Source of the DNA: Micractinium sp. NFX-FRZ
Lineage: Eukaryota > Chlorophyta > Trebouxiophyceae > Chlorellales > Chlorellaceae
Assembly: GCA_029339195.1 (NCBI GenBank)
Contig: JAPTJF010000242.1
Coordinates: 27,230-91,229 of the forward strand
Direction: 5' to 3'
Length of the DNA: 64,000 nt
The position numbers and the translations under genes were made by a program. Under the pieces are notes generated by a model. It had not been told where the DNA came from. It was given only the letters and a program-made list of their open reading frames with translations, and made no database searches. Position 1 is the stretch's first letter. The number at the start of each line of letters is the position of its first letter. Below, in pieces: positions 7,801-56,000 of this stretch.

Positions 7801-8135
7801 GTGGCCCATGAGCGGCCGAATCTGCGAGCCAGCGGGGCGCGCGTCGCTGGTTTTCAACCCGCAGAGCTAGGGTGGAGGAAGCAGGTGCAAACTGACCCCA
7901 TCCAAACCACGCCCGCGGGTAAGCGGGGACTCACCTTGCCGCTATGCAATTGTGGCATCAGTTTGCGCCTCACAGGGGGTGCAGGGAGAACGGCAGCAGG
8001 TGCAAACCGACCCCAGCTCACCTTGTCGCTATACTTCTGCAGCATCAGCTTGCGCCTGATGGCGTGTGGCTCTGAGGACGATGTCCAAAAATGCGGTCCC
8101 CACGCCGTGGGTGAAGAGCTCGGTGAAGAACTCAT
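4808..8135 (-). CDS. DEGS1: Sphingolipid delta-4 desaturase (DEGS type)
   Basis: A di-iron membrane desaturase that introduces the delta-4 trans double bond into dihydroceramide or long-chain bases in the ER. Six exons: 8135-8022, 7821-7507, 7108-6952, 6268-6090, 5505-5408, 5081-4808; sum 1137 bases, 378 residues. The N-terminus has the family signature around EPHAIRRKLMLQKYSDK. The three histidine boxes are AHHEITHN, HMDHHSE and HVEHHDFP, the last preceded by YNFGYHVEHH and followed by IPWNRLPQLR, all diagnostic of the delta-4 group. Hydrophobic segments flank boxes 1 and 2. The C-terminal Ala-rich extension (AAAAAVAARM) is longer than usual. The ATG at 8135 directly precedes the homologous region. 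Intron 1 contains a decayed copy of the exon 1 end. Confidence 0.92.
5385..5401 (+). repeat. (TG)n microsatellite in desaturase intron 5
   Basis: Perfect TG dinucleotide run just inside the intron between desaturase exons 5 and 6. Confidence 0.85.
6560..6690 (+). repeat. Imperfect tandem duplication in desaturase intron 3
   Basis: Two adjacent roughly 60-base units share ACAGGCGGATGGGAATGC and GCCAAAATC.CAACCCA with point differences. No coding role is evident. Confidence 0.65.
7879..7976 (-). repeat. Decayed copy of desaturase exon 1 end plus donor
   Basis: The stretch matches the 3' part of exon 1 and its 5' splice site at 8015-8065: RRKLM-Q--S-K followed by GTGAGT, versus RRKLMLQKYSDK and GTGAGC. 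Adjacent intron sequence (GCAGGTGCAAAC.GACCCC) is duplicated as well, so the unit spans an exon-intron boundary. Confidence 0.7.
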
Positions 8136-8903
8136 GGCTGCGCAGCCCTAAGAGGCCTGCCTGTGCCACAAACGGTATGGGGCAACCAAGGGGTGAAGAC
8201 AGAGATGAGTGCGTGCGCGCAAGCCTCCAACAAATTCGGAAATGCCGAACCCACCTGACGCGTCTTGGGGCCAGGGCGCCAGCGCACAGCGCATGCAAGG
8301 GCCTACCACATGGTGCACCCTATCATCGGGCCCCAGTATGACCGGCACACGAGGTTCCCATGCATCTCCAAGTTCTTTGTTGCGGTATTGATGTGCAATC
8401 CGTGCCATGCAGCGCACCTGCATGCCGTGTGCGGCCCCGCCCGTGCCAGTGCCGGATGCCACGGTGGGGCTGTGGCGGGTGTCCTGCAGGCTGGCTGGAG
8501 CGGCCAAGCTCTTCCATCCCTGCCCACCGCCAACACCCTATCACCACATTGCTAGAAGAAGCGCCTGCTACATCAACACTTGAGCGCAGGGTGGGAGGTG
8601 AGTGCACGCCTTGTAATAGGGGGGCACGGCGGAGGCGGTTCCCGCCCCAGCCCTGGGGCAGCCCCTGCACTGGCACTGGTGCAGCTGGTGTGCAGGATGG
8701 GGCTGGCACTGCTGCATCCAATCAGTTCCTTGTACGAAAGTGCAGAGGCACACTCACCTCTAGCTGCACCAGCTGCGAGATGAAGGAGCAGAAGTGCAGC
8801 CCACCCACCGAGGCGTCAAGTCTTGCACAGCAGGAGGCACCTAACAAAATATCTGATGGCGTGTTGCGGTGATTTTAAGTTGCCTGGGATCAAATTGTAA
8901 GCC
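8136..8903. other. Upstream of desaturase; no supported gene
   Basis: About 770 bases, expected to hold the desaturase promoter and 5' UTR. A minus-strand stretch near 8820-8760 (GGLHFCSFISQLVQLE then GTGAGT) looks exon-like but could not be linked to anything, so no gene is called. Confidence 0.3.
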
Positions 8904-9736: not shown

Positions 9737-10597
9737 ATGGCCGCCTCCCATTTTACCCTGTAACCATGGCCGCCACGGCTCAGAAACCTCCGCTGGCGGC
9801 AGTACGCTGGCGGCAGGTCACGCGCCGCTGCGCCGCCTGCGCATTACCTTTCCTTCCAAAGCACCCTCGACTGCCCTGGCGGCCGCCAGCCAGCAGGCGG
9901 AGCAGTGCAACCCCGAGTTTGCGCATTTCGTCACCTGTTCAACACGGACCTTACCAAGTGCCGTTCCACTGACCGCTGCTCAACAGCCGCTGTGTCTGCA
10001 CCCACCATTCTTGCGGCACGGGCTTCTTAGATATGCACCCGCCCTTCCCGTACCTTGCAACACTTCCTAGTGCTGCATTCCTCCATGGCTTTCCTTGTAT
10101 GCGTGGGCATTACCTTCGTAAGGCACCCTCCCTTCCTGTACCTTGCAAGCCACCCCGCTGCTACGCATGCCCCCGTCTTCCCTGTATGCCATACCTTGGG
10201 TACTGTGCCTCTAGCCACTGCCTCCGGGCTGCAAACCCAAAACTGCTGCTGCACTGTTGATTGCACTCTTGTCTTTGTTGGCAGCAGGGACAGCACCCTC
10301 TGGCAAGACGGAGAATGCAGTGAGCGGCGCTAGCGCGCGGTGAGTGCTGCACGTATTAGAGCCCCTGCTTCTGACCTCCTTGCATGCCTATGTGGCATTG
10401 CGTTTGCAACGATGGGTGCATCTTTCGTCACAGAAGCTGGGGGAATGTCACAGTTGCAGAACCTGCCTGCCTGCGTGCTGCTGATTTGCGCACACCTCCG
10501 GGGGTGCTGCGCACGCTGCAGCACCGCCAGTTGCCGCCGCCGTCCAAGCCACCCACACACACACCTGCGGTCACTCTTCGGTACAGATCATCACACC
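9737..10597. other. Glutaredoxin upstream region with short direct repeats
   Basis: About 860 bases before the glutaredoxin start. Near 10038-10060 and 10128-10152 two copies of a CCCTTCC-GTACCTTGCAA motif occur about 90 bases apart. No gene recognised. Confidence 0.35.
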
Positions 10598-12794
10598 ATG
10601 CAGCTGCAGCTCAGTCAGGCGCGCCCCGGCGCCTTCACGGCAGGCCTCCAACGCCGGGCCCTGGGCGGCTCTCGTGCGCGCCGCAGCCTCGCTGTGCGCG
10701 CCGGCATCGGCGAGAACATCATCAATTCCATCACGGCGAGTGCCCGGGGACCGCAGGGCGCGAAAAATGGGTGCCGCTGGGCAGGAGCGGCGCGGTGGCT
10801 GCGGCTCGGCGGAGGCGGCGAGCAGGGCGCCCTTTTGATTTCCTCGTGCCCACCCCACGTTCCGCCCCGCCCTCCTCCCTGCAGGTGGCCCTGAAGCAGA
10901 GCCCGCTGAACCAGGGCAAGTTGGCCCTGGCGATTTCCCAGGCAGGAGACTACGACCAGGCCGCCACTCGGGCAGAGATTGAGAGCCTCATCTCCTCCAA
11001 CCCGGTGAGGAGGCAACAGCCGTCTGCCAGGGTTCCACAACAGGCCGTGGATGGGTGGGGCGCCTTGGCATGTGTTCGGGCAGGGTGTGGTGGGCCTGAC
11101 GCTGCTCGTAGCCTCGTCCCCTTCGACCCGGGGAGCTCATGCGTTGGTGAAGAAGGGGTGCAGTACCACGCTGTGAGTGCGGCAGGACCCCCATGCTTCC
11201 AGGTCCCCATGTGCGGGCGGCAGAACAAGTCAGGCCACGGATCAGGGGTCACACTTGCCGGTTTCGAGCATCAGCAGCACCACTGCGTGCGGATCCTTGC
11301 TCGCCGCAGTCCTCCTCCTCCACCCCTCAAGAGCCTCGGGTGCCAGGGCATGAGTCCTTTCCGCCCCCCGCCTTCTGCCCCCTGCAGTGCGTCGTGTTCA
11401 GCTGGTCGGGCTGCCCCTTCTGCAAGAAGGCAAAGGTGGGTGCTCACAAATCAGGGCCTCACGTCGTGGCTCAGCACACACGCCAGCCTCGTCCCAGCGA
11501 GCAAGGGTGGATGCCTGCGCTGCCCTGCGTGGAGGGGAGGGGAGGGCAGCACTAGCCGTCCAAGCAGCTGGTGCCTTTTGTGACCGGCGATGTCAACAGG
11601 AAAGCTCATGTCGCACTGACAAGGGTAGCATCAGCAGTGTACCAACAGGTTGGCGCATGCACCAGCCCATGCGCCGGCCCATGCACCGGCCCATGCACCG
11701 GCCCACCCCAGCTCCGCTCAAGCGCCTGGTTTGCTCGTCGCCTCGCCTTGCCCTGGCTGAACTGTTCTATACCAACGGCAGGCGATCCTGGATGGCACGG
11801 GCGCCAAGTACCTTGCCCTGGAGCTGGACACGATGGGTGCCGAGGGCAAGGCCATCCGCGCTGAGCTGGCCAGGTGAGAGGGGCGCTGAGCTGGCGGGGT
11901 GCTGAGCTGGACACGATGGGTGCTGGGCTGGGGGGATGCCGAGCCAGGCGGTGAGGGTCAGTTGCGGCTGTGGCATGCCTGCATGGCTGTCTCTGGCAGG
12001 GAGGGGGCAGGGAGGGGTGCAGCCCTCTGTCAAAGGTGCCTTCTGCCGCGCCAGACTGGTGGGCGGGCATGGCGGCGTCCGGCCCTCCCACCCTGCCGCC
12101 CGGCAGAGTCGCTTGTTCGTGGCAGGCAGGCGCTTGCTTGCTTGCTGTGCCGACCTCCCTGGCTTGCGCATGCGGCGTGACCGCTGCCCTTCTCCCTGCC
12201 TGGCCCAACCTTGCAGGATGACTGAGCGCACCTCCGTGCCCAATGTGTGAGTCTCGGTCTGCTTCTTCTGTATCCGATGCATGGGTGGTGTGCTGAGGGT
12301 TGTCCGTGAGAGGACCTTGGGGCAGAGGCAGGCGAAGCAGCAGCAGCAGCAGCAGCACACGCTGGGTCAGCAGAAGCAGCATTTGGTGCTGTGCATTTAT
12401 AAGCGCACATGCACGCAGCTCGGGAGGCTTGTGGCATGGGCAGGCATGCTCGCGCCCTCCCACGGGCGAGGCACCTGTGGCGGCTGCCTGCCCCCTGCGC
12501 AGTTCTCCTGACTCACCCTCCCTGTCGCCCCTCCTTCCGTGCCTCCCTCCCTCTGCCCGCAGCTGCATTGCTGGCACCATTGAAGGCGGCCCTTCCTCCT
12601 GCTGCCTGTGCACCAGCTGACACCTTCCCCCCTTGCCGTCACCCCTCACCATTTGCACTCCCTCCCCCGCTCCTGCTGACCGCAGCTATATCGCCGGCAC
12701 GTCTGTGGGCGGATGCAACGACGGCCCCGGCGTGGCCACGCTGCAGGGCAAGGGCGAGCTCGTGCCCCTGCTGCAGGCGGCGGGCGCCATGTGA
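10598..12794 (+). CDS. GRX: Chloroplast-type glutaredoxin with CPFC active site
   Basis: A small thiol oxidoreductase that uses glutathione to reduce disulfides or remove glutathione from proteins. Exons 10598-10735, 10885-11004, 11388-11435, 11782-11873, 12217-12246, 12686-12794; 178 residues. The first 40 or so residues are Arg/Ser/Ala-rich (QLQLSQARPGAFTAGLQRR) and look like a plastid transit peptide. The core reads CVVFSWSGCPFCKKAK (active site CPFC), then the TSVPNV cis-proline motif and IAGTSVGGCNDG, the glutathione-binding loop. Intron 1 begins with GC (ACG/GCGAGT) and keeps phase 0. Exon 5 is only 30 bases. Intron 4 repeats 20 bases of exon 4 exactly, and intron 5 contains a decayed copy of exon 6. 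The gene converges with GapN. Confidence 0.9.
11655..11706 (+). repeat. 12-base tandem repeat in glutaredoxin intron 3
   Basis: Four imperfect units of about GCCCATGCACCG follow one another in the intron upstream of exon 4. Confidence 0.75.
11885..11940 (+). repeat. Intronic copy of glutaredoxin exon 4
   Basis: Bases 11904-11923 are identical to exon 4 positions 11821-11840, and flanking GCTGAGCTGG units repeat the exon 4 end next to the donor. Intron 4 therefore starts with fragments of the exon it follows. Confidence 0.8.
12554..12620 (+). repeat. Decoy copy of glutaredoxin exon 6 with its own acceptor
   Basis: After CCCGCAG at 12562 the sequence would encode CIAGTIEGG, parallel to YIAGTSVGG of the true exon 6 at 12686 and in the same splice phase. 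It then runs into CLCTS and a stop at 12618-12620. It is either a decayed duplicate or an alternative terminal exon lacking the GCNDG glutathione loop. Confidence 0.7.
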
Positions 12795-13857: not shown

Positions 13858-16800
13858 TCAGCCCATGGAGTAGGAGGGGCGCTCCAGGTTGATCACCGTG
13901 GTCTGCAGCCACAAGTGAGGTGAGAAATGGGATGCACAGGGTGAATACATACAGTAGCCCACAGTGCAGGAGTTGCTGGCAGCACAGCAAGGAAGGCGGC
14001 ACACCGGCCCCACCCCAGGCCACCTCAGCAAGCCAGCCCAGCCCTCCTAAGTGCGTTCCTTTCAGCGCCCGTGTTGCACTTGAAATGCAGCAAGTTGTCG
14101 ACCACGGCACTGCTGCCAAACCACCACCACCCCACCCACACCACGCCAGCTCAGCACGCCAGCTCAGCACCCTCTCCACTTATTATCACCCACCTTTGTC
14201 TTGCACATGAACTCCAGCGACTTGTTCACCCCCTGGGAGCCGATGCCCGAGTCACGGAAGCCCTGGAAGGGGAAGTGGTCGGGGCCGCGGGCGGGGGCGG
14301 AGTTGACCTGCGGGGGCGGGCGGTGGGGCAGGAATGAAACGATGACAGTTGAACAAATGGGAAACAACGGCACTGTGCAGCCTGTCAGCAAGTCGACAAG
14401 TCGGGGCGCTGGCAACGCTGGGTGGCCTGCGCTTGGCAGCCCGCTGTGCGCTGCCAGTCTCCAGGGCATTGCCGCACTGCATTGGCACCGGCTCGCATCC
14501 AGATTGCCACACACAGCTTCGCTTGAATACCCCACCTGCACGCTGCCGGTCTCCATGGCGTCAGAAATGTACATGGCCTTGTTGATGTCCCGGGTGAACA
14601 CGCAGCCCTGAAGAAAAGTGACAGAAGGAACACAGGGTCAATTGGATGGTTAGAGCGAAGTGCAAGGCCTTGTTGATGTCCCGGGTGAACACGCAGCCAT
14701 GCAGGGCCAGACAAAAGCAACAACAGCGGTATGTGGTGAGTGGTCTTGCTGATGCTGTGGGTAAACACCAGCAGTGCATCGCCCTAGCCTGCCTGCACCG
14801 CACAGACATGCCGTGCCTGGCGTAGCCACTGCTCCTCCCCACGGCGCTGCCAGCACACACCGCCGGCAGCAGCAGACACCCACACGATGTACCACACACT
14901 ACTTGTGTGTTGGCTTGCCTGCAGCGCCAGTCGGTTGGCGTTCACGTGCTCCACTGCCTGCTCCACATCCTTCACCCGGATGATGGGCAGCACGGGGCCA
15001 AAGGGCTGCCCAGGGAGGGAGGGGAGGGGAGCACACACCAGGTTGAGAGGAGCGGTGAGAAGGCGCTGAGCTGCCTGCCCGGATGATGATGGATGGACAC
15101 ACATACCGCTCAGCTCCACCCCACCATTCACTCTGCCGCTGCCCTGAATCCACGAATCGCCCCAGCGAAGCTTAAACTAAGCCCCCATCTGTTGGTCATA
15201 CAATGAGTCACCAGTACCCACTCTCCACTCGTTAACACACCTCCTCCCACGCGATCCGCATGTCGGGTGTGACGTGGTCCAGCACCACGGGCCAGATGAG
15301 GTTGGCCTCCCGCCGGTAGGCGCCTGTGCAGAAGGTGGCGCCCTTGGCCTGCGCATCCTTCACCTGCACCGGGGGGTGGGGGAGGGGGGAGGGGGGAGAC
15401 AGAGAGGGGAAGGGTGGCGGGGATGAGGGAAAGGGGGGTGCGTGGCAACCGCTGTAGCTGTCGGGTGCGCACACGCAGGGGCGGGCACGAGGTGCTGCTT
15501 CAGCAGCGCTGCGCGTGCAGGTCGGCAGGCAGCAGGTGCAAGGATACAGTGCGGAACAAATATGGATGTATTGTAGCCACAAGTTTTGGAACAGCAAACG
15601 AAACAGAAGAAGAAGAAGAAAAGCTCACCAGCCCCTCAATGAAGTTGGCTGACGACTGGCTGATGACAGGGACGATCTGAGCATTGTCCTCGGGCCTGCA
15701 GGGGGGCGGCAAATTGAGGGTAACAGAAGGAGTCAATCGACTGAAGAATCTGCCGCTGCGCTGCGTGGCACAATGCCCACATGCGCCTCCACTAGTCCTC
15801 TGCACCCGCCACCAGCAGCAAACCCATCCCCGCCCTTCACGGAGGCGTCAGGAGACAAGCAAGTCGCCCCACCCACCCCCGCCCCCTGCCTCACATGCCG
15901 ACCGTCATCTTCTGCACGCCCGCCACCACCAGCGGCACCAGCTGGTCAGCCACGCTCTCCTCCACCAGCACCACCTTGACGGCTGCAGTTGGAGGGGGCA
16001 GTTAATAATGGTGGTCAATGCATACGTTCAATGAATAGCACAGTGCTGTGCGCTGGACGGCTGCACCAGCACCACCACCCGGCTGCAGCGATAAGACATG
16101 GTCGAGCGAGAATAGGCCCCTGGGCGTAGGCAGGGCCTTGCCGCCAGCCACTGTGCTGCTCACAAGGGTCTTATGATGAGGGTCTAAAGTCTACTAGTAA
16201 CTTTCCAAGGTGTCTACACCATAGCGCTGCCAGCCCCCCCTCACCCGTGCAGCGCTGGCCACTGTAAGAGAAGGCACCCTTCACAATGTGCTTGGCCGCC
16301 GCCTCAATGTCGGCGTCGGCGCACACGATGGCGGCGTCCTTGCCGCCCAGCTCCATCTGCAAGGGCAGAGGAGTCGGTTGTTAGGTAAGGTGGGCAGGGG
16401 GGGAGATGGTATCGGCGTCGGCGCACACCGTAGCGGCATCCTTGCCGCCCACCTCCCCCATCAGCGGAGCGGATGCCTTAAAGAGCAGCACGTTGGGTGC
16501 GCAGTGATGTGTGCGTGTGTGCATGCGTGTGTAGGTGTGGATGTGGGGCATGTGGGCAGGCAGGGCGGTGGGCAGGAAGGGGCACGCCGGAGGTAGGCTG
16601 CTGGGCAGGGCCGGCCCGCCACATCCCCTGCTGACGCTTCTTGTACCCCACAGTGAGTAGCACCCACCTGGATAGCCACCATGGCTGCTCCACAGTTGAC
16701 CCCAACACAAAACCCATGCTGCCTCTCAAAAGGAGCTATCCGTTGTTGATAGTAATGCGCCCACCGCCCACCCACTTGGATGGGCACCATGCTTCGCCAG

Positions 16801-19461
16801 TGCTGCTGCTCCACAGCTGACACCAACACAAGGGTCAGCGCTGCTCCTTGTAAGGAACACACCTTGTTGAAAGTAAATGTAGTCACCCACCCACCCGCCC
16901 ACCTGGATGGGCACCATGCCGGCCTTCTGGCAGATGGAGATGCCGGTGTCGCCGCCCGTGAAGGAGATGGCGGAGGCCAGGGGGTGGGCGGTCAGGTAGT
17001 CGCCAATCTCGCTGCCCCGGCCTGCCACGAGAACACAACACCGGTGATAAGTTTGTTGCCAGTGTGGTGGTTGCCCTCGCCTCTTACCGTGGCGGTCGGG
17101 CAGTTCCCACACCATGCACGCGACTGCCAGCAGCCAGTGTGGGCACAGCTGGCACGCGCGGCTGCCTACTAAACAGCTGCAGATTAAATTCTCTCAACCG
17201 GCCGCGGCACCTAAGCACGCCCTGCGTGTAGGCCGCGGCCGAACACCCTGGCAGCATAGCATACAGCGCCCCCCTCCCCCAGCAACAAAGCCTCCCCCAG
17301 CAACAGAGCCTCTCACCGGTGACGCAGTTGAGCACGCCCGCCGGCAGGCCCGCCGCCGCAAAGCACTGCACCATGAGCAGGCCGGCCACGGCGCCCTGGG
17401 TGGGCGGCTTCAGCACCACGCTGTTGCCGGCCATCAGGGCGGGCCCGATCTTGCTGCAACAATAAGAACGACATCAAGCGAGAAGGCGGGGGCAGGGTCC
17501 AGGGGGTGAGAGAAGGTAGGAGAGCACGGCCCTCTCTGGGGTGGCCCCCGCTTGTCCAGAACGTGTGCCGGCCACCCACTGCCGGCAGCAGCAGCAGGGA
17601 ATGTACAGCATCCTTCAGAGAGATTGCTCGTTGCCGCACCTGACGGCCAGGTTGACGGGGTAGTTGAAGGGGGGGATGGCCAGCACCACGCCCAGAGGCA
17701 CCTGCACGGGGGGGCGGGGCGGGCCCGGGAGGAGGCGCGGTCCAGTCGAGTCAGCTCGAGACGTGTCAAGTTGGAGATGGCAGGGAGGTGGGAGAGGCAA
17801 GCCATGCTGCATGGGTGTCCGCCGTGCCACCTCAGCACGCCATTTTGTGCAAGTTTGCAAGCAAAAGTGCCCAGGCGCAGTTTAATGAGCTCCTGGGATC
17901 CCGGTGGCAACAACGGCATGCAACCTAGTACAACCTTGATTAGCACCCACCTTGGACGCCAGGCACAGCTTTGTGCGGTCCTGGCCGGGGAAGGAGTCGG
18001 AGTTGAGCAGCTTGCCCTGCAGCAGGGGCAGCAGGCAGTAGAGGGTCTTAGGGGGGAGTAGGGGGCCGGGGGCAGGGAGCCGATGATGGTTGGCAGCTTG
18101 ACAGGGAGTTGGCGGCACATTGATGGCTTGGCGTAGCAGAATGTGCACAGCAGGACCACAGCACACCTCCCCAAACCAGCGCACGCAGGCCCTCTTCGTG
18201 CGCGGCGTAGGAAAGCACAGCACAGCACAGCACGGCACGGCCACAGCATGACCACAGCGCACCTCGCCAAAGAAGCGCACGCCCTCCTCTGCAGTGTAGG
18301 ACAGCAGGTCCGCGCTGCGGATGACCTCTGCAGCACAGCACGGCACAGCATGCACAGAGTCAGCTTGACAGCCGCGACGGAGGTGCAGCAAGGGCGACAG
18401 GCGTAGCTTCCCGTGCCACGTCACTTTCTTGTCAGCCGGCTTGGCAGCCTCCTGGCCCACAGCACAATGACACTCAGGAACCCTGGCCATATGCAACAGC
18501 ACAACAGGTCAACAAACACAGCAGCACGAGCCCCGCATGCCACTTCGCTTGCCTGTCAGCGCCTCGCCGGCGGGCTTTGCCACCTCCTTGACCAGCACGT
18601 CGGCAATGGGCTGCGCATTCTCCCGCATCACCGCCGCCACGCGGTGCAGGTACTCGGCGCGCTTCCACAAAGGCACCTTGGCCCAGGACTGCATTGGCAA
18701 GGAAGAAAGTAGGCAGGCGGGGGGGGATGAGCGGATTGAGGGAGGTTGGATGTGTGGCAACAAACGTCACGCAGGCCTTCCTGTGGCAGCACTTTTTTAG
18801 GGGCTCGGCTGGGTGCACCCGGAGGGGTGATTGCCCACCAGGCTGGTGCTACAGCTGTACAAACATGCATCTGCAGACGCGCAGTTCATCACCAGCGCTC
18901 GTTTTCAAGGGCCCACACCCCTGGGGTAACCAGGCTGCCGTGCACCCCCTCGTCTTCCGGCGGCGGGTGGCGCCGGAGCACAGCACCCTGCATTGGCCCC
19001 ACCTTCTGCGCCTTCTTGGCCGACTGGAAGACCGCATCAACCTCCTGCTGCGTGCAGGCTGCAGTTACGCAGGGCACGGGCAGGGGTGGCAGTCGCGGGT
19101 CGGCACAAAGGGCTGGCGCTGCGGCGCGTCAGCAGCGGGCGGCGGCTGGCGGCGGCAGGATGGTCGAGGTGCATGAAGCCGCGATTGCGACCGGGCGCAC
19201 GTCTGTGAGGCACGTCGTGACCCAATGCTCACACCGGGAGGCCGCGAGACCGGTGCAAGCGGTCAGCGGTGTGTGTGTGTGGTTGCGCCGGATGACCTCA
19301 CCTTGCACCTGGAAGGCCACCGAGTTGTTCTGACTGGGGTTCAAGATGGGGCATTCCCGGCCGGAAACAGACTCCAGCCACTGGCCATCCTTGAAGAACT
19401 TGTATGCGCCACTGGGGGCAACGCAGGGCGCATACAAGTCGCCGGCCTGTAGCACAGTCAT
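13858..19461 (-). CDS. GAPN: NADP-dependent non-phosphorylating glyceraldehyde-3-phosphate dehydrogenase
   Basis: A cytosolic ALDH11-family enzyme that oxidises glyceraldehyde 3-phosphate straight to 3-phosphoglycerate and yields NADPH. Sixteen exons: 19461-19302, 19058-19003, 18688-18553, 18327-18263, 18016-17951, 17701-17640, 17453-17317, 17021-16903, 16356-16245, 15982-15895, 15695-15629, 15363-15241, 15005-14919, 14607-14536, 14307-14194, 13902-13858; 502 residues, the normal family length. Landmarks: PPFNYPVNLA, SFTGGDTG, the catalytic Glu in MELGGKDAA, the catalytic Cys in FSYSGQRCT, INSAPARG-like VNSAPARGPDHFPFQG, and the C-terminus VINLERPSYSMG. Introns 3 (ACAG/GCAAGC) and 13 (GCAG/GCAAGC) are GC-AG. 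Several introns contain decayed copies of exons 4, 8, 9 and 14. Confidence 0.96.
14663..14770 (-). repeat. Copies of GapN exon 14 start in intron 13
   Basis: Positions 14663-14698 match exon 14 (14572-14607) over more than 30 bases, including the GCGTGTTCACCCGGGACATC part. A third, weaker copy lies at 14741-14770. Confidence 0.85.
16410..16460 (-). repeat. Decayed copy of GapN exon 9 in intron 9-side flank
   Basis: Would encode GEVGGKDAATVCADAD, against MELGGKDAAIVCADAD of the true exon 9 at 16356. It sits in the intron upstream of exon 9, so the catalytic Glu region is duplicated but damaged. Confidence 0.8.
16661..16830 (-). repeat. Two copies of GapN exon 8 end plus donor
   Basis: At 16661-16708 and 16760-16830 the minus strand repeats the ATGGTGCCCATCCAAGTGGG-like junction of exon 8 (16903) and its donor. 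The two copies also share CTGCTCCACAGYTGACMCCAACAC, showing that intron sequence was duplicated too. Confidence 0.8.
18164..18214 (-). repeat. Decayed copy of GapN exon 4 end
   Basis: Minus strand would read TACGCCGCGCACGAAGAGGG and so on, resembling the TAEEGVRFFGE end of exon 4 at 18263-18305. It is followed by a GT donor-like site. Confidence 0.6.
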
Positions 19462-20406: not shown

Positions 20407-23400
20407 CTACCGTGCGCTGCGCGACGCCTCGCCATCGTGCGCCGGCCCCGTGCCGTTGCCCAGTTCATCCAGGCTGCGCGCTGGGAAGGGCCGGGCCTTG
20501 TCGAAATCCACTCGGTACACCCGGGCGGCCGCCAGCACCTGCTCGGGGAGCTCCTCGGGGCGGTTGCCTGCGGGGGCAGAACAGCAAACAAGCCAGCTGA
20601 ACACAATGACTTGCGGTGACAAAAGCACCCTCAGTTGTGACCTGGCTCCTACCCAGTGTGCCTACAGCCGCACAGGCTTTAGAAGTATGGGTGAGAGCGT
20701 TAGGGGAGCAGGCAGACGGGGCGCTCAGCACCCGGGGAGGTAGGCGGGCACGGTGCATGCACGCCGACGGGAGCACATGCATGCTTGTTATTTTGAGGCA
20801 CCCTGTGCTGCCCCCACCGAGACTGCTGCCAGCCAAGGCGGCTTCTCAAGAGAGCCACAGCAGCCAGGCACTGATAATGACAAGGTTAAACAGCTGTTGC
20901 GCACCCTGCACCACAAACGCGTTCTCAAACACCACGGGCGCCAGGCGGTGAATAAAGCCGTGGAAGGCCTTGCGCGCGATGAAGGCATAGTTGTGGATGT
21001 CCAGGTCAATCTCCAGGTAGTTGGTGCCTGCTGTGCATGGCAAGGCAACGGGGGCAGCAGGCAGGGGCATGCGCGGTGCGTAGCAGCAGGGGGACGGCCA
21101 CAGGCGAATGCATGGAGTGGAAGCTATGGTGCGGCGAGCACTGTGAGGGAGGCAAGGGTGTGGCTCTCCGATGGGCAGCGCCCGAGGGTTACGGGGACAA
21201 CGAGGGCAGGGGCACACAGAGAGGGTATGGCTGGGCATGCCCAAGCCAAGCGTACGGTGGTTGGTGTCTGCAAGACCGGAATGCACAGCGCACACCACAT
21301 CGTGACGTGCACAGCCGTGCAAGCGGGGCGCGCGCCCGCATCTGCACTGTGCTGCTCGCAGCACACGCATGGCAGTGTGACAAAGAGGACTTGCCAGGGT
21401 GCAGCAGCGCTGCGCCCCAGCACAGGCAGCCAGCCCACCTGTGTAGAAGCGGTGCTGCGGGCGCGTGAGCAGCGGCTTGTCATGATAATTGGTCAGCAAG
21501 CGGTGCTCGTAGCCTGCGGGATGGGGGCACGTGGTGGCACAGCTCAGGGACGAGAGGTGGCACCGCTCAGGGACGAGAGGTGGCACAGCTCAGGGACGAG
21601 AGGTGGCACAGCTCAGAAAGGGTGGCGGTATGGCCACGGTGACAACTCGACGCCTGAGACCACCCGACCGCACGCACACACCTCTTGTATACAAAGATGT
21701 ATGAAAGATGCACCCAACGCCACCCCACCCCAAACAACTATAAAGCTTCTTTCCCCACCCCATGACTGCGTTGTTGCACCGCCCCACCCACCCGTCAGGG
21801 GCCCCTTCTCCGCCCATTCCGCAATGTTGGTGACGCGCGGGACGAGCTTGAAGCGGTCGCGGGTGGGGGTGCCGTCAAACTCGCGCTTGTTGTTCATGAA
21901 GCGCTGCACCAGCGCCAGCGCCGCCTTGTTGTCCACCTGTGCACACGAGGGAAGGGAAAGGTCAGGGTGTGAACATGACGGCGGCAGACATGGCATGCGG
22001 GGGCTGGCCAGCGGGGCACTCCAAGTGCGTCTGCTGGGCTGCCGCGCCACCGCTGCCAGGCTGGCGGTTGCCCACCTGGCTGGGCTCCCAGCCCTCGGGC
22101 AGGGCAAAGTAGTAGACCAAGCTGTGCCCATGCCCATCCGTGGGCCCAAACAGGGTTGCCTGCAGAAGGGGGGAGCAGGGCGGGCAGAGAGGTGAGCATG
22201 GGCGCAGCGTGCGGCTTGTACGGCAGCCGGGGAGCCTGCCAAATAACGACGTGCTGCCACCTGGCATTGACTGCTGCACAGCCGCCCCCGGCCCACCCAC
22301 ACCCTGCAGCCTTGCACGCAGCAAACCCGCCGGCTCTCCAGACTCTCCAGTGCCAGTTCGGCGCAGCACGGTCCGGTGCAGCCACAGCACAGCGCAGCGC
22401 AGCACAGCGCAGCGCGGCCACCCACCGGGTACCAGGGCAGCTGCAGGTTGATGATGAGCAGCGGCGGCAGCTGCTGGTCGGGGGGGAGGGCCAGAGCCTC
22501 GGGACCTAACCGCGGCGCCTCTGGTAGCTGCAGCGGGGCGACAGGCAGGCAGGAGCAGTGGCGGGGCATGTGGTGAACGGGGGAGGAGGCCCAGCAACCT
22601 GTGGAATTGGCCGTGATGGTGAGCTGCAGCATAGAGCCATGGTCGCCGCACAAAGCCAGCGCACGGCCACGTGCCGCAATCCAATCTGCCCAGACGTCAC
22701 ACCCTCTGGCCAGCCCAAACACTTGCTCTTGGCCCTCCCCGCTGCCTGCCCGCTCCCCTCCCCCTCCATACCCCCATGGGCCCCACCTGCCCCCTCAGCC
22801 ACCTCCTGCCCCCCGCCCACATCCCCCCCTCACCCACCTGCACATGCTGCGCTATGTGGAAGAGCTTGAAGTCAAAGGTGTACACGTCCACACCCACCAG
22901 CCTGCAGCAGTTGACACAGATATCCAACTCAGCACATGAAAACGCCGTGGCTCTCTCCCCTCTTGCATTGCAGCATCCTGATGCTCCGCCCACGCTGCCC
23001 GGCTGACCCATGCCACGGCGGCCTTCCGCTGCCTGCAGCCCGCCCTTGCAGCAGCCCCCGCCTGTACCGTAGATGATGCGGGGCCCGCTGTCTCCCTCCT
23101 TGTCCTCCCTGCGCATGTACTTGTGGCCGCACACCTCACCCACGGCAGTGCCGTTAGCCTTTGGCCACCTTTGCCATCATCCTCCCCGGCAGCCGCCCCT
23201 CTGCCCACCCACCCATGCACCCACCCACCTGTAGATGCAGGGCCCGCTGCTCTCCTTGACCTTGCTGCGCATGTAGTTGTGGCTGCGCACTTGGAAGCAC
23301 GACCCCTCCGCTGGCTCCCAGGCCGCCGCCGTCCGCTCCGCCCCCTCCTCCGACGTTTTGCGCTGCACGGCAGGCAAGGGCAGGGCAGGGCGGGGCGGGG

Positions 23401-26225: not shown

Positions 26226-29200
26226 ATGCAGCGCTCCGCCTCGCCTCCCTCGCTGCGGGACGGCCTGCAGCCGGAGCAGATAGCCGCCTTCAAGCGTACA
26301 GCTATCAACACAATCATCGACGCCGGCTTCAAGCTCTCGATGTGAGCGCGCAAGTGGTCCTCTGGCCTGCCGCAGCCCCTGCACGCTGCGTGATGTCAAC
26401 ATGTCGAGGGAGACTCTGCATGCTCAGGGCATGAAGACCCAGCAGACAGGGGCCTGCAAGGGGCTGCTGCTGCCGCCCGCACAACCTGCCGCCTGCTGCC
26501 GCTGCTCCACCCTCCCACCTTCCTTCCTGACCTGCGGCAGGGACCAAGTGGCCATCTACGCCTCCATCTGCTTCCTGCACAAGTTCTATGCCGCAAAGTC
26601 GTTCGTGCGCAACGACCCGTTTGTGAGCGGGACTGGGGCAGTGCCTCTCTTGTTGTGTTGCGTTGCGTGGCACACCTGTTTATGTGCTCTTCTGGTGGCA
26701 AAGGGCAGTGTGCCCGCCAAGCAGGGGCACAAGGTTACTACACTCAAGGACGCATGTTGCCGGTCTCCCAGGAGCCCTCACACTCCCTGGCGCACACAGC
26801 TGCACACGGCCCCGCTGTAGCACCCGCCCACCCGCGCACCATTCGCAGCCACAGCCCGTTACCTACCCCAGTCGCTGCCTCTCTGCCCCCGCACTGCAGC
26901 TTTGTGAGCCCGCCCTGCCTGCCCTGTACCTACGGGGCAGGTGGGTATGTTGCCCTATAATCCTGTACCCTGCGCGCTTTCACAAGCCCGGCCCCTCCCT
27001 ATGCACCCTGGGCGCTCTCACCTTGCCCCGTCCCCTCCCTCCCATATGCGCAGCTCATGAGCGTAGCCTGCCTGTACTTGGGGGGCAAGGTGGAGGACTC
27101 GCCCAAGAGCGTGAGGGACGTGCTCATGGTCAGCTGCGAGCTGCGGTACGGCATCGAGGCGGCACGGCGCCTGATGTCGGACAAGGTGAGACCGGCGGGG
27201 GCGGGTTGCTGTGGAGTGTGCTGCTGTTGTGTGCTGAGGTGCTTGCCCATGGTGGCCTGCGGGCTGTGATATGGCATAAAGGCGGCGCGTGATGGCAGGC
27301 AAGGCGAGACCGGGGGGGTCGGGCTGCTGGAGTGCGCTGTTGTTGTGTGCTGAGGGCATGCTGAGTGGCACGCAGGGATGGTCTGTTTGACTGTGAGCTG
27401 CGGAATGGCATGGTGGCGGCGCGGCGCGCGACGAGCACACGTATCGCTATTCCCCATCACGCACACCTGTTGCTGTGTCTCCCCCGTCCTTGTGCCTGCA
27501 GGCGCTGTACGAGTCGCTGCGCGAGAAGGTGTTCACCGCAGAGCGGGCGCTGCTGTATGCTCTGGACTTCCTGTTTGGAGTGGAGCATCCCTACCGGGTC
27601 AGGCAGGCGGCTTGGTTTTGAACTTGGGATTTGAACTGGGGTTTTGAAACCTACGTGTGTGCCTGCGTCCTGGGGGATTTGTGCATGCTGTGTTGCAGTG
27701 TGGGGCGGCACATGGCCCTTCTCAAAGGCGCTGCGGCCCCATGCTGGGCATGCTGACCTCATGCTCCACACCCCTCCCCGCCTCCTCATCTCTCCCTGGT
27801 CCCTTGCTCTCTCCACCCCGCCCTCCCCCCCTAAGGCTCTGCAGCCCATGTTTGGCATGCTGACGAGCGAGCCCCTGAAGACATACCGGGAGCAGCTCAA
27901 GGTACGGGACTCACGGAAGGAGCTGCACCTCAACCAGTTTGCGCTCAACTTTGTGAACGACAGGTGGGTGCTGCACGTTTGACTGTGCTGTGTGCTGTGA
28001 ATCACAGCTGTGCCGGGCTGCAGTCAACTGTGTGAACGGCAGGCGGAAACAACAGCTGTGCCGGGCTGCAGTCAAGTGTTTGAACGGCAGGCGGAGCTGC
28101 ACTGGGGTGAGGTGTTGTACAGGAAGGCATGCTGCAGTCAAATGTGTGTGCGGCAGCTGGGCGCAGCACGGTCAACTCTGTGAGCGCCAGCTGCGCCACT
28201 TGTGCGGTCAATGTTTTGGACAACAGGTGTGGTGTGGGGGAGAAGGAGGGGGCAATCACGGTGCCTGGCGGTGCCCAGGACAGTGCTCGATAGGCCTACA
28301 TTGTGCTGCTGCAGTGGGGGCTCGCTGCTCCCGCTGTGCGCTGCGTCCAATGGGCATTCAGATCACTTCATTTACGGACGAATGCAGCAGCGCGTGCCGC
28401 GCCTGGCCGCGCCCCCCCCTTCTCCACTGCCCCCCGCTGTCCCAGCCCGCCCTCCTGCCCACCCCCTGGCTCCCTCCCTCCCCCGCCCCCCATGCCTGCA
28501 GCATCCGCACGGAGGCGTGCCTGTGCTACAGCGGCACACAGATTGCGGTGGCCTGCATCTGGCTCACCATGAAGCTGCTGAAGGAGGACTCGCACATCCT
28601 CACAGGTGGGCCAACCGGCCCGCCTGGGCGAGCTGGGCGGCAGCCACCAGTGGGGTGCAGCAGTGCACGGCTGGACGGAGCAGCGGGCAGGCGTAGCAAT
28701 TGAGGCCACCAGCGCCCCTGCCATCCCCTTGTGTCACTGCCATGCACCCGCCCGGCTGCTCATGCCTCCCTTCCTGGCTCTCCTTCAACAAAACGCATGC
28801 GCAGGGATGGGTGGCAGGCTGCACCCTGCAGCGCTCAACCTGAGCTGCCACTACTTACCCTCCGCCTTTTGTGTCATCCCTCTCTCCACCCCTCCCTCTC
28901 GCCGTCCCCTCCCTGTGCGTGCCTGCAGAGGACGGGCAGCTGTGGTGGGTGGCCCAGGGCGTGCAGGAGCAGCATCTGTTAGGTGAGAACCTGACGCCCT
29001 GCCTGCACTGCCTGCCTCCTGCCTTGCACCCGCCTTGCACCCGACCATAGGTAGCATGCAGGACTTGCTCCACACTGCGCCGCCATGCTGTGCCCGCGCC
29101 GCCCCTGCCACGGCAACACCTGTGTGCACGTGCTCTAGCCTTCTGGCCCTCGCCTCTGTTGCTGTCCCATCCTCGCCGCTTCCCGGTCCCCTACTGCTCG

Positions 29201-29944: not shown

Positions 29945-35457
<5,513 letters not shown>

Positions 35458-37580: not shown

Positions 37581-40500
37581 TCAGTAGGCCATGCTTCCCT
37601 TGGCCACGTGCCGCTTGGGGGCCACCGCCGCCGCCGCTTCTGCCGCCGCCTCGCCTTGCCCCTCTGCCCGCTGCCGCCGCCGCTCCTCCTCTTTCAGCAG
37701 CAAGTACATGCTCAGCTGCCAGGGCTGGATGCTGGCAGCAGGCTCCTCTTCTGAGCTGCCCCCTGCGGCAGCTGCTGCCTCTGCCGCCTCCTCGCACATG
37801 CGGCGCCCCGCCACCACGGTTGCCGCCCGCAGAGCGCGCTCCCGCTCGTCCCCTTGCAGATCGGCGCCTGCAACATGAGGGGCACAGGGAGGGCAGGCAA
37901 GCAAGCAAGCGGTGAGGCACGGGTAGAGGGCAGGGCTTGGGGAGGAGCAGGGAAAGGAGGGCAAGGGCAAGAGCATGGCAGGGGGAGAAGACAAAGAAGG
38001 CCGGCTGCCTAGCTGGCCAGGTGGGCTGGCAATGGCGGGGTGGGGCACGCAACTGAGCTTCTGGCTGAGGAGGCAGCAAGGCATGCAGGCGGGAAGGCAT
38101 GCAGGCAGGCAGGCAACAGATACTACAGAACGCTCTGCCTGGCGGGCCCTGCCGACCCCACCTGCATCCACCGCTGCCGCCAGGCTGTCCGACAGGCGCA
38201 GCACGCCCTGCTGCCGCAGCACCGCTGGCAGCACGTTGCCTGCACAGGGGCAGGGGGGAGGGGGTTGGGGGGTTGGGGGCAGGCGCAGAGCAGGAATGCC
38301 ACACAAATGACCTGCACAGACGGCGGAGCGAGGCTACCAAGCCTGCCCACCTCTACACCTAACACCCTAAGCACCCCCTCCAGCACCGCCACACCTTCCC
38401 CAGCATGATGCGCCCACCCCATGCCACCCTACCTAATGCACATCAACCAATTCACTGATGCTCGCCCGCGCCCCAGCAATCCTGACCTCTACCCTAACCT
38501 GTACCAACCACTTCTGACCAGCATCCACATGCGTTGATAGCCAATAAGTTGTTAATGCACATGCATTGTGACTCACCAGAGTCGACGGTGAGCGCCTCCA
38601 TGTCGGTGAACCGGAAGCGCGCGTCGCTCCCCCTGAAGCGCAGGTGCAGCTGCGCCGCCAGCAGCTGGGCCTTGCGGTAGAAGTAGACCTGCTTGTTGGG
38701 GGAGCAGGAGGGGCCAAGCAGGTTTCAGGAAGCTATATGAAGCAGGAAGAGGCAGCACTGCGGGACGCAGCTGCGTCATGAAGCCTTGCCCTCGCCTTCA
38801 ACGCTGCCTGACTCCCCACCCGCCCGCCTTCCCGGCTGCCCCCTCCCCAACCCCTGCCCGTCCGCCAAGTTGCACACCACACACCTCAACCCGCCCTCCC
38901 AAACCCCCACCTGGCGGCCGCGGTACAGGCCGGCGTCGTTGAAGGCGGGGAATGTGTCTGCCAGCTCTTCCACCAGTGCGGCCGCCGAGGGGGCCTGCCC
39001 GCCTGCCGCCTGTGCGTCCAGGTTTGCCAGGACGTGGGCGCCCAGGCTGGCGTGGCCTGCAAAGGATAGAGGGGATAAGGAGGCAGGGAGGCAGGGAGGC
39101 AGGGGGAAACCGTGGGGTGGGAGTGGGAGAGCATGGAGGGAACCCGCGTCCACCGGGGTGGTCTGCAATCATCGCGACCCTGACCCTGACCCACCCACCC
39201 ACCCACCCACCACCTAGACACACAAATACATGAGGCAATCACTAAGGCGCCACAAGGTGGTGTGGTCATCCTGACCCAACCATCCACCCACCCACCCACC
39301 CACCCCAATAAACAAACCAACCAACCAACTACAGGCTCACCCGAATCCCCCAGGATGGCCCCCGTCTCGTTCAGCGCCTCCCTCAGCCTGTTTGTGAACC
39401 CCGCCAGGGGGCCCTGCCGTGACAGCACCACGCCCGGCAGGCCCGGCACCGCCTCGTCCTCTGCGGGGCGGGGCAGGGGGAGGGGGAGGGGGAAGGCACG
39501 GGGGGATGAGGGGCGGGCAGCGATTGAGGAGGAGGGCAAGGGTGCCAGCCGGGGTTGCGTGCTTCCAGCTCCTGAACTGGAGGCGCCCCCCGTCCTCTGC
39601 AGGGCAGGCAAAAGGGAAGTGGGCCAGTGGGGATGGACGGCTCGGGGAGCTCGCAGGCGGGGGAGTCTGAACCCTTTCAATGCGCCCCAGCCAGCCAGCA
39701 CCCTCAGCTATATGATCTATGTCGACCCCGATCCCACAACTTCCTCACCTGTGACGTCGATGGAAAAGAACTGGAGCACCTGATATGATGATAACTCTCA
39801 CCCGTCGGCCGTGAGAACGCGCCCCCCAGCCAGCCAGCTGCGCCCCAGCCAGGTGTGTGCCCTTCATCTTACCGGTGACGTCGATGGAAAAGAACTGGAG
39901 CACCTGATAGGCCGAGAACTCCCTCATCCAGTGGTGGCTCTCCAGCGGGGCACCGTGCATCAGCATGCCCAGCAGCCCAAACTGGACCGTCTCCCGCGCA
40001 TCTGAGGGGTGGCAGCAAAAGAAGCGGGTGGGAGCACAAGCAGTGTGTGCAGTGGCAAGACGGCACGATGGGGCGTCCGCGCAGTGGCACATGCCCGGCA
40101 GCCCAAACTTTGACTGTTGTGCGCGCATTTGAGGGTGGCTGAAGAGAGGCGAAGGCAAACCAGGCAGGGGCAGCAAGAGACGTGGACAGGCAAGCAGTGC
40201 CAGGAAGCAGAGCAGCAAGCGGGAGGGGTTCAAGTTTGGGCCTACCGGGGGCTGGAGAGTGGGAGCTGGAGAGGAGGCAGACAGGATTAGGCATTGCGAG
40301 CCAGGCAGAGCATAGCCTTCACCGCCTGGCTTCCATGCTTCCCCTCCTTCCCCCGCCCCCTTGCACCACCACCCCCGGCCTCCTGCCCCGCCCCACCTTT
40401 GCCGGTCTTGGCGAGCAGAAGGGAGTCAAAGCCGCTGCCAAAGTCGAGCAGGTGGAACACGCACATGGCATTGACCTGCATGAGTGGAACATCATATATC

Positions 40501-52554: not shown

Positions 52555-53005
52555 AGCCAGCCCAGTGGTGGGCGCCATAGCCGCTGTTCACAACAACCGC
52601 AGCGCTTGTGGGGAGTTGTATGAGGCGCAGCCACAATCGCACCCCATGGGGAGTGGGGCAGGCACCCCTGCGCGTCCCCCTGTTTGTGCAGCCCGCTACT
52701 CCTCCCACAGCATTCTGCTGGCACTGCCCTGTGCCAAACTGTAACAGAGGCTCGCTTGCCGAGGCGTTCCACATGCAGTTTTTGTGGTCAAAGAGATAGC
52801 TGGCCAGGCGACCTGGCACAGAAGGCGCTCAGGCAGAGCGAGGCAGGGCAGGAGTTGCAGGAAGGCGTCTGGTGGCATTGAATGTTGGCAGGAACACCCA
52901 GGGGGACTGGGAGATGAAGGAGGCGGGCCACTGGGAACGGAGGAAGGCACCAGGTTGGAAAGAAAAGATGCCAATCCGGGTCGGGTGGGAAGCAGGGCAG
53001 GGTGG
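52555..53005. other. Convergent intergenic region
   Basis: Between the SEDG gene and PAF1 stops. A TGTAA at about 52749-52753 may be the poly(A) signal of the SEDG gene. No gene recognised. Confidence 0.45.
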
Positions 53006-56000
53006 TCAGAGGTCGTCATCGTCATCTCCAAACACATCTCTCAGGGCCGCATTGCCCGTGCCCCGATACTCGCCCCCGCCCCCGCCGCTGCCCCCGCCGC
53101 CGCCGCCGCCGTCGCTGCCGCCGCCGCCCTCCTCCTCCTCGTCTCCCCAATCGACCCCGCCGCCCTGCTGCTGCCCGTCCGCTGCCGTGCCAGCCTGCTG
53201 CTGCTCCTCCTCCACTTCCTCTTCATCAAACTCCTGGCCTGGCAGCCGCAGCAGCACCTGGGCAGGAAGCAGCCGGAAGCGGGTGGGCAAGGATCAGGCA
53301 ACGAGACGGCGGGCTCAACAAGTGCCTCCTCCTCTTCTTTCCCCGCCTCCGCCGCAGTGACATTTGCAAGCTGACTGGCAGCTCACCTTTGCAGCTGACC
53401 TGCCAGCGCCAGGTGGCTACAAACTAAAGGCCCGTGTCCCCCTCACCACAACAGAAGCCCCATCCGGTCTGGCAGAAGCTCTTGCTCCTCTTCCTCTCCA
53501 CTTCAGGCTGCCGCTTGCGCTGACCTCCCCGCCCCTCCCCACCGCAACACGCCACAACCAAAGCCCTGCATGTACGTAACAGCTGCTCCCCACCTTCTCC
53601 GGCAGCAGCGCCTGCTCCTCCTCCTCCTCCTCCCCGCGCGGCTGCCGCTTGCGCTTGCGCAGCTCCAGGCGGGTGTTGAGGTCGTGGAAGCGCACGGTGC
53701 CGTCATCGGAGAAGCGGAAGAGGTAGGTGGAGGCTGCAGCACGGGGCGGGGGGGCGGGGGGGGGGGTAAAGAGGGCCAGGGTTGCAAGTCAGTAATATTG
53801 GGCTCAGTAGTAACCAGAAGCGGAAGAGGTAGGTGGAGGCTGCAGCACAGCGTGGGAGAAGCACAGGGAGGCAGCACGTGTCAGCTCCAGGCGGGTGTAC
53901 TGAGGTCGTGGGCGCGCCATGCTGTCGCCAGCGAGGGTAAGAGATGGGTGGAGGCTTCACAGGCCAAATAGCAGGATGGCATCAGATGTCACAGATAAGC
54001 AACGGCCCAGTCAGCGCGCCTCGGTTGTGCAAGTGCGCAAGCACGAGCTGCCGCAGCGCAAGTAACCTGAGTGGTGGGATAGTTCGAGGCATCGCCAGAA
54101 GCCAACAGGAGCAGGAGTGCACCTCTGTCGTCCATGCGTGCCAGACTCCAGCACAGCACAGCACAGCATGCAAAGCAGCGGCAAAAGTAGCGCACCTCTG
54201 TCGTCCAGGCGTGCAGCGCCGGTGTACTCGCGCACCCAGTGGTAGTCCCGCACCAAGTCCTTGGCTGGGATGCCGCCCTTCTGGCTCAGCTCGTCGTCAC
54301 TGCAGGGAGGGAGGGGCCATGGGCCAAGTTTGAAAAGGGGGTGGGGAGCGGGGTTAACTGGCTGTGTGCTGAATAGGGCAGGGTGGCGTGGTTCGGGACA
54401 CAGAGCCGCGTGGTGCGGCACAAACAGCGGTGGCAAGCACAATCATGGGGTTGGAAAATGAGCAGCCCGGACTTTGCCCCGCCCTGCCCCCCCGCCCTGC
54501 CCCTCCCCCGCCCTGCCTCACCCCAGCGGCGGCAGCGTCTGCGGCACAAGCAGCGCAACAAACTGCTGCCCCTTGGGCGGCCGGAACGACTTGAGCTGGT
54601 GGGCCTGCACGGCGGTGGGGAGGGGGTGTGTGGGATGGATGGTGAGTGGCAGGGAGTTGGTCGGGCAGGGAGTGGGTACAGCGGTCAGTGGGGGGTCGGG
54701 GCTGGGTGGCAGGGTCGAGGCCGTGCAGCAGCGACTGTGGTCGCGCCAACCGTCTGCAGCTGCCCAGCACACTCGTGTCCCCTGCGTGTGCACCTCACGT
54801 GGCTCCCGCTTCAGCCGCTCCAACTTCCAGCCCATGCCTGCCCGGTGCAAAGCTTCTTCCTTGCTTCCAGCTCTAACTGCCTCCCCTCCCTTGCCCGCCT
54901 GTCAAGCTCCCTCCCTGTATCCTAGCACCCACCTGCGTGGCCCGCGCCCGAAGCTCGGGGGGCACCCTCTCCAGGTGCTCCACATCGTCCATCGGGTGGT
55001 TGTCGAATGTGGCCAGCACGCACGACCGCCCCTCCATCAGGTCATCGGGGAAGACTGCAGCAGGGGGAGGGGCGGAAGTTCGAAGAGGTTCAGATTGGGT
55101 ATGGAGGGGGGGGAAGTTCAGATATACTCGGTAGTTAAAGTGTTACGGGAAGTGTGCACGACCGGCCCCTTCATCAGGTTGTCGGTAAAGACTGCAGCGG
55201 GGGTAGGGGGGAAGGGGTGTAGAGAGACTCTGGCAAGATACAGCTCCGAAAAGGGCGCACGACCGCCCCTCCATCAGGTTGTCGGGGAAGACTGCAGGAG
55301 CGGGGGGAGGGGAGGCAGGGGTTGTGCAGGTGGCACATGGTGTGGTGGCACGAGGTGTGGTGGCACAGGATGAGGTGGCACACGGTGAGGTGGCACGAGG
55401 CGTGGCGGTGCGAGGTGGCGGGAAGTGGTTGTCAACTGTGGCCAGCAGATGTGGTTGCCCCTCCGCGTGTCATCGTTGACTCCCTTTTCCCAAACACAAT
55501 GTGCGCAGGTGCACTGATCGCACCTCGCCCCGCCGAAAACACACCCTGCTGCCCTCCCACCCCTCGCTGCTCCCACCGTGCCACCCCCGCCCACCTGGCA
55601 GCACCTCCAGCGGCTGTATCGAGGGGTCCCGCGCGTGCACGGGCGCCCCCTTTGCCGCCGCAAACTGCAGCTCAATATGCCGGATCCGCGCCTCCCGAGG
55701 ATCCTCATTCTCCTCCTCGGCAGCAGCTGCCGCGCCCGCCGCCGCCGCAGCGGCCGCCTTGGCGGCCGCGCCGCCCGTGCCGATGCCGCGCCGCAGCCCC
55801 GTATCTGCAGCCAGCCAAGAAAACAGCACACACTAAGCCTGTTTACTTGTCCTGGCAAGGTGCCCCACCTGCGCTCACAAACTTGGTGAAATGCAACAAG
55901 CAAGGCCGGCTCCCTCCGGAGGCCACATCAGCGCCACGTCAGCGCCGCATCGTCAGCCTGCTGTCGACAGGAAGTCACCCTTGCCGAGAACCCCCACCCC

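Follow-up and report, generated by a model that had tools for sequence, protein, structure and literature searches.

The window analysed here, a stretch of 64,000 nucleotides on contig JAPTJF010000242.1 of the green alga Micractinium sp. NFX-FRZ, has a GC content of 62 to 67% and comes from a draft assembly of 66,065,352 bases in 838 contigs. Three of its genes could be delimited exon by exon, the edges being set by spliced alignment to orthologue proteins from at least two species each. They code for an NADP-dependent glyceraldehyde-3-phosphate dehydrogenase (GAPN), an inosine-5'-monophosphate dehydrogenase (IMPDH) and RNA polymerase II-associated factor 1 (PAF1), and together (hereafter, the verified genes) they have 42 exons, 39 introns and 78 edges. 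Identity to the Micractinium tetrahymenae proteins is 86% for GAPN, 90% for IMPDH and 76% for PAF1, and by these orthologue proteins the window can be placed near Micractinium. GAPN and IMPDH, which lie close together in the window, correspond to M. tetrahymenae loci with adjoining numbers (ABPG75_002899 and ABPG75_002900). Introns 4, 8, 9, 10, 13, 14 and 15 of GAPN, introns 3, 4, 6, 7, 9, 10 and 13 of IMPDH and introns 7, 9, 10 and 11 of PAF1 contain degenerate copies of the end or the start of an adjoining exon, often together with its splice site (Table 1).

These copies were assessed edge by edge. Each query, made of 8 nt of intron and at most 60 nt of the adjacent exon, was searched against the remainder of its own intron, with the reverse complement of the same intron and other introns as controls. 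In the verified genes, 22 of the 78 edges matched their own intron at a score of at least 26, 18 at a score of at least 28 and 14 at a score of at least 30. The reverse-complemented introns gave 0 of 78 at all three thresholds, and the matches expected from other introns were 0.28, 0.08 and 0, respectively. Two of the 22, the acceptors of PAF1 introns 2 and 11, were dropped as simple sequence, leaving 20 of 78 edges with copies (12 donors and 8 acceptors); at a score of at least 30, a copy is carried by 12 of the 39 introns. Chance similarity in GC-rich, simple sequence thus explains some matches, the two removed, but given the empty reverse-complement control and the 0.28 matches expected elsewhere, its probability as an explanation for the remainder is practically nil and we rejected it. 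A scan for local repeats (distance 20 to 600, short-period sequence filtered), in which inverted repeats serve as a composition-matched control, points the same way, with 68 direct versus 2 inverted repeats in the window at a score of at least 15 and 36 versus 0 at a score of at least 20. The corresponding figures for 18 other 10-kb stretches are 360 versus 5 and 216 versus 0, although one of them, L005, alone accounts for 160 and 110 of these direct repeats, respectively. This density, reached in positions 1-10000 of L005, apparently reflects a repeat-protein gene, and the stretch was left out of the counts of pair classes. BLAST self-comparison yields fewer pairs than the diagonal scan.

For the rest of the genome we used an ab initio gene finder, a hidden Markov model (HMM) trained on 244 kb (donor GTGnG, acceptor TGCAG) and retrained on 294 kb from 24 sequences. 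Of the 84 exon edges in the verified genes, the retrained HMM placed 68 exactly, and it called 52 exons there versus 42 true ones. Introns shorter than 60 bases were excluded from the comparisons of ab initio edges and lengths. Over the 294 kb, 59 of 960 edges matched their own intron at a score of at least 30 (54 of them not short-period), against one in the reverse complement and none in other introns, and at a score of at least 28 the counts were 66 (60 not short-period), 5 and 2. Outside the window 37 of 719 edges were positive (score of at least 28, not short-period), spread over 16 of 23 stretches, and at a score of at least 30 copies appear in 15 of these 23 stretches from elsewhere in the 66-Mb genome. 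The genome-wide frequency is probably an underestimate, because the HMM swallows some copies as exons. The copies that a preliminary description had reported from the letters of the window are therefore real and recurrent, in the verified genes as well as at ab initio edges. Its count of at least ten affected genes was too generous: we count nine in the window, three of them verified by orthologues and two more in which the copied piece includes an ab initio edge. Its statement that the copies are gene-specific, rather than members of a dispersed introner family, is borne out for the four introns or intron parts searched against the whole genome, each of which matches itself only, one also matching its own exon edge (the search skips simple repeats and very common words).

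All copies are in direct orientation and lie typically 80 to 210 bp from the original. Over 47 edges the period has a median of 105 bp and a 10 to 90% range of 80 to 212; this set derives from 54 edges, seven having been dropped for an exonic side of more than 70 columns or less than 20 bases of period left. In the verified genes the unbiased scan recovers 20 direct exon-intron pairs, 15 of which overlap an exon edge or lie within 4 nt of it, while the other five start 14 to 57 nt off the edge, with gapped blocks that reach within 9 nt of it. We propose, at a probability of roughly 0.7, that the copies go back to small tandem duplications, which spanned exon-intron borders and lengthened the introns without a change in the protein. 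Such duplications would hit exon-intron borders as well as other non-coding DNA, and the unit would be an exon tail with an intron head, or an intron tail with an exon head. With the outermost donor or acceptor staying in use, the protein would be unchanged, and the inner exon piece and its splice site would become intron, which would gain about one unit length per event. Selection would hold the real exon while the inner exon copy would decay neutrally; the intron parts of both units would decay, hence twice as fast, and would often no longer be recognisable. We infer tandem duplication as the origin in every case, continued use of the outer site and neutrality of the decoys.

At 9 of the 47 edges the two copies stay homologous over 60% or more of the remaining period, versus 39 of 648 control extensions. 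In these nine, divergence is 0.156 in the exonic part and 0.329 in the intronic part. The ratio is 2.11, and about 2 is expected under a border-spanning tandem duplication because one exonic but both intronic copies are free to change. Homology also fills the period of the copied GAPN exon 8 end (16/17 in the exonic and 71/99 in the intronic part), which is accompanied by a third, degenerate copy at 16663-16683, and it spans the first period of the copies at 27235-27427 in a cyclin gene (113/152). Pairs without exon fill their period (median 0.98 for 20 intron-only pairs and 1.03 for 15 intergenic pairs), and therefore plain tandem duplication occurs in this genome. Introns with copies have a median length of 334 (n = 55) versus 224 for those without (n = 448), although a long intron also gives more room for a match. 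Direct and local placement, contact with the edge, the full-period subset and the longer introns all speak for the lengthening of introns by tandem duplication across borders, as had been suggested at the outset. Intron birth, suggested along with it, failed: its signature (an intron end resembling the upstream exon end, or an intron head resembling the downstream exon head) was found in 0 of 465 introns at a threshold of at least 15 of 20 and in one at a threshold of at least 14 of 20, the control being 0 at both. Birth by exon-segment duplication was accordingly rejected.

The copies have changed as non-coding sequence does. In 19 edge-copy pairs, mismatches amount to 29/234, 28/233 and 49/237 (12.4%, 12.0% and 20.7%) at the first, second and third codon positions; this tally excludes three edges with fewer than 20 exonic columns and retains one simple-sequence edge. 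In pairs with at least 20 exonic columns, 18 of 20 gaps are not a multiple of three. Eight of the 20 come from GAPN intron 4, where the alignment extends past the exon start, and leaving this intron aside gives 10 of 12. These alignments show what a non-coding copy with a decay of about 12% yields once silent change in the true exon is added. When 13 pairs of copies from the same edge (356 nt) are compared, there are 75 differences from copy to copy versus 91 summed from exon to copy, and therefore the copies change largely independently. A second copy-to-copy comparison (0.685 for exon-derived versus 0.680 for intron-derived sequence) includes sequence beyond the exon and is not relied on. 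A function as alternative or mutually exclusive exons is very unlikely. Frame-breaking gaps and similar change at codon positions 1 and 2 tell against such a role, as does the absence of the copies from the exons obtained by spliced alignment to orthologue proteins. Functional exons were rejected as a class on the frameshifts and the codon-position pattern, even if a single alternative isoform could still exist.

Backup splice sites under selection, the other form of a functional explanation, share that low probability. The splice dinucleotide could be aligned in 43 copies and is kept in 30 of them, GT in 12 of 19 donors (with GC in three more) and AG in 18 of 24 acceptors; in addition, IMPDH intron 4 holds a succession of intact GTG-type donors, one after each copy and all behind the true donor at 31182. 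However, the retention predicted from exonic identity is 0.65, about what is found, and therefore there is no sign that selection keeps or removes decoy sites. The assertion that the copies keep their GT or AG thus holds for most of those that can be aligned, but not beyond what decay predicts, and 11 of the 54 copies end short of the splice site. On the sequence, decoy splice sites are present. The draft assembly of 838 contigs also raises the question of an artefact in which two alleles or paralogues were joined in tandem. A second allele, however, would be coding, whereas the copies are frameshifted and differ at about 12% of first and second codon positions, and no second locus was found for four of the four introns searched. 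We hardly reckon with this possibility, and allelic misassembly was rejected on the non-coding decay and the missing second locus for the searched introns. As for age, the exonic parts have diverged from their copies by 16 to 17% on average (47 edges), with 29 of 44 being 80 to 95% alike and three of 44 at least 95% identical. The copies would be younger than the split from M. tetrahymenae, because protein divergence there is already 10 to 24%. The scarcity of near-identical copies argues against a high present rate, unless the draft assembly has collapsed young duplicates. The breakpoint junctions appear too old for a reliable reading of microhomology or blunt ends.

Several results weigh against border-spanning tandem duplication. 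The intron half is missing from most copies: 38 of the 47 edges fall short of 60% of the remaining period, a deficit that the faster decay of intron sequence would explain only in part, and residual intron homology is detected (p<0.05) in 5 of 19 tested edges (GAPN intron 4 was too short for this test), in spite of the good preservation of 29 of the 44 exonic parts. Exon-containing pairs outnumber intron-only pairs by 52 to 20, and the verified genes have 20 exon-intron versus 3 intron-only pairs, not counting three low-complexity intron-only pairs. In exon-containing pairs homology covers a median of 0.44 of the period. In the verified genes, 13 of 20 copies lose it no more than 10 nt from the splice site; at the less certain edges genome-wide, 18 of 54 stop within that distance and 28 of 54 extend more than 15 nt into the intron. 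A neutral simulation in which tandem duplications fall at random and at a constant rate gives a ratio of exon-containing to intron-only pairs of 0.6 to 1.0 and a median fill of 0.70 to 0.97. Without events in the last 0.15 to 0.20 substitutions per site, the ratio becomes 1.8 to 16 and the median fill 0.56 to 0.87, the observed values being 2.6 and 0.44, but these runs with an older wave give fewer pairs of at least 0.85 identity (4/41, 11/87 and 12/80) than observed (18/52). Finally, rotation of gene labels within stretches (E, exon; I, intron) reveals no exon-intron excess (E-I 24 versus 30.4 expected, EI-I 25 versus 21.8), with a deficit of I-I (24 versus 45.2) and E-E at 79 versus 19.1; it was not used as the main null because repeat proteins inflate E-E. 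Event age accounts for part of the pattern but not all of it, and the fit is partial. Either introns turn over by larger insertions and deletions than simulated, or exon edges are copied preferentially.

Preferential copying would mean that some exon- or splice-site-linked process, for example breaks, R-loops or RNA-templated repair at exon edges, inserts the exon piece with its splice site but not the adjoining intron. It would suit the abrupt stop of homology in the 13 verified copies, the ratios of 52:20 overall and 20:3 in the verified genes, and a median fill that is lower than in every simulation run. The genome-wide edges tell otherwise, since only those 18 of 54 stop within 10 nt on either side of the splice site and more than half run well into the intron. 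Besides, the copies of the verified genes touch the exon edge, as they must if they belong to a contiguous tandem unit, 9 of 47 keep their homology over most of the period and show the neutral ratio of 2.11, and older neutral events partly mimic the pattern. The donor-side copies in IMPDH introns 6 and 10, inspected by eye, do not run into the next exon, unlike those expected from an mRNA template. We consider such a splice-coupled origin unlikely; it is weakened, not removed, because of the older-event simulations, the 2.11 ratio and the genome-wide count of stops. If true, it would amount to a lineage-specific mutation process that reads exon-intron structure, with many exon borders bearing fossil decoys.

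Table 1. Genes and exon-derived copies in the window (positions are those of the window; "original" is the copied segment).
Feature	Position	Strand	Details
ZIP-like gene: copy (31/37) of exon 1166-1202	1087..1123	-	30 nt from predicted edge; ab initio model
Fatty-acid-desaturase-family gene: copy of exon end and donor (original 8017-8068)	7930..7981	-	period 87; ab initio model
Glutaredoxin gene: exact 20-nt copy of exon 11821-11840	11904..11923	+	33 nt from predicted edge; ab initio model
GAPN gene, 16 exons	13861..19461	-	spliced alignment to P0002 (Micractinium tetrahymenae) and P0003 (Chlorella ohadii)
GAPN intron 13: copy of exon 14 start (edge copy 14569-14632)	14660..14722	-	period 91; exonic 37/39; AG lost (CTGCAT)
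GAPN intron 8: copy of exon 9 start (original 16310-16354)	16412..16456	-	period 102; exonic 40/45
GAPN: copy of exon 8 end, donor and ~100 nt of intron (original 16805-16919)	16684..16792	-	period about 121-127
GAPN intron 4: copy of exon 4 end and donor (original 18242-18370)	18146..18269	-	period 96
EDR2-like gene: exon segment and copy	23038..23290	-	period 156; both exonic in ab initio model
Cyclin gene: copies of end of exon 27054-27185, donor and intron	27235..27427	+	periods 118-123 and 257
Cyclin gene: copies of exon end 27925-27968	28004..28156	+	48-bp period; two copies 95% alike, another at 28131
IMPDH gene, 14 exons	29948..35453	+	spliced alignment to P0121 and P0123; match to human IMPDH
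IMPDH intron 4: row of copies of exon 4 end	31205..31353	+	three by eye, four matches at a score of at least 22
IMPDH intron 6: copy of last 65 nt of exon 6 (original 32017-32082)	32231..32305	+	period 214-223; 9-nt insertion
IMPDH: copy of exon 8 start and CAG acceptor (original 33053-33080)	32841..32868	+	period 212
IMPDH: copy of exon 10 start (original 33839-33868)	33712..33741	+	period 127; acceptor AG changed to AA
IMPDH: copy of exon 10 end and GTGGG donor (original 33917-33949)	34008..34040	+	period 91
IMPDH: copy of exon 14 start (original 35329-35386, 9 nt inside edge)	35219..35278	+	period about 109
Queuosine-salvage gene: exon end with donor, and copy	39744..39921	-	48/54 identical; period 124; both partly exonic in ab initio model
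PAF1 gene, 12 exons	53009..57634	-	spliced alignment to P0241 and P0242; Pfam PF03985
PAF1: copy of exon 11 start and acceptor (original 53710-53750)	53816..53856	-	period 106; exonic 24/24
PAF1: copy of exon 10 end and donor (original 54186-54214)	54113..54141	-	period 73
PAF1: two copies of exon 8 start with acceptor and pyrimidine tract (original 55019-55078)	55156..55318	-	spacing 100 and 137

Six further window genes have exon-derived copies (desaturase, cyclin, queuosine-salvage, EDR2-like, ZIP and glutaredoxin), the names ZIP-like and EDR2-like being our assumption from motifs. In two of them (desaturase and cyclin) the copied piece contains an exon edge as predicted ab initio, and in two others (ZIP and glutaredoxin) it lies 30 to 33 nt away from the predicted edge. 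For the remaining two (queuosine-salvage and EDR2-like) the model takes both copies as exonic, and the exon copy was chosen by eye. Other repeats in the window include minisatellite-like arrays with units of 15 to 34 bp (21533-21616, 36595-36678, 40511-40585 and 55328-55417) and a 12-bp repeat of about 13 copies at 51280-51437, within a predicted coding exon, which encodes an acidic Gly-Ser-Glu-Asp stretch. Within two introns of GAPN (16667-16668 and 14792-14793) and one of PAF1 (53399-53400) the spliced aligner placed zero-length exons, i.e., an AG with a donor immediately after it. The first of these, at 16667-16668, corresponds to a copied exon end and its donor. Such copied ends, where they are of the CAG|GTG type, resemble recursive splice sites. 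Also, GC takes the place of the initial GT in 4 of the 39 introns supported by orthologues (GAPN introns 3 and 13, IMPDH introns 8 and 13), a share that is high relative to other eukaryotes.

Discussions of intron lengthening usually centre on transposons and random insertions. Border duplication would be another route, seen here across a genome and visible because selection holds the exon copy constant. Its relics would date the events and measure neutral decay within introns. They also pose a question about splicing, namely, how the spliceosome picks the outer among near-identical donors or acceptors about 100 bp apart or, in the row of intact GTG-type donors of IMPDH intron 4, how the first donor is chosen. 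Gene finders can be misled by such copies, as our own surplus of called exons illustrates.

Recurrent gain of intron sequence within one lineage is a feature of introners, which are intron-creating elements. Unlike introners, the copies described here have the neighbouring exon as their source, and none of the four introns searched has a match elsewhere in the genome. Mean intron lengths of 179, 206 and 272 bp are given for three green algae in a paper on the related Auxenochlorella, the consulted passages of which do not mention exon-edge copies (PMC12636532), and among open-licence papers searched by title and start of abstract none reports widespread exon-edge copies in green-algal introns. 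As to the mechanism, break repair by CST-guided Pol alpha-primase makes small tandem duplications in human and mouse cells (PMC8355091). Like those considered here they are small, direct and adjacent, and such duplications would be a natural source of the units; the abstract and outline of that paper make no link to splice sites. In the model of Rogers, as set out in passages of two papers (PMC4974935, PMC3443670), introns are gained through tandem duplication of an AGGT-containing exon segment. The likeness lies in a duplication inside a gene that provides redundant splice sites and leaves the protein unchanged, but the signature of that model, a period equal to the intron length, is found in none of the 465 introns here at the threshold of 15 of 20 used above. 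The nearest parallel is the potato RdRp gene, in which, according to the passages on this case in Ma et al. (2016; PMC4974935), a single tandem duplication over an intron-exon border created a new intron. There, as proposed here, the duplication lies over one intron-exon border and the splice signals come from the parent border; unlike the potato intron, which is new, existing introns would have been lengthened here, with copies at 20 of the 78 edges of the verified genes and in 15 of the 23 stretches from elsewhere. The type of event, a single border-spanning duplication, was thus already known; what is new is how often it is seen here and what it leads to, namely, longer introns with decoy borders.

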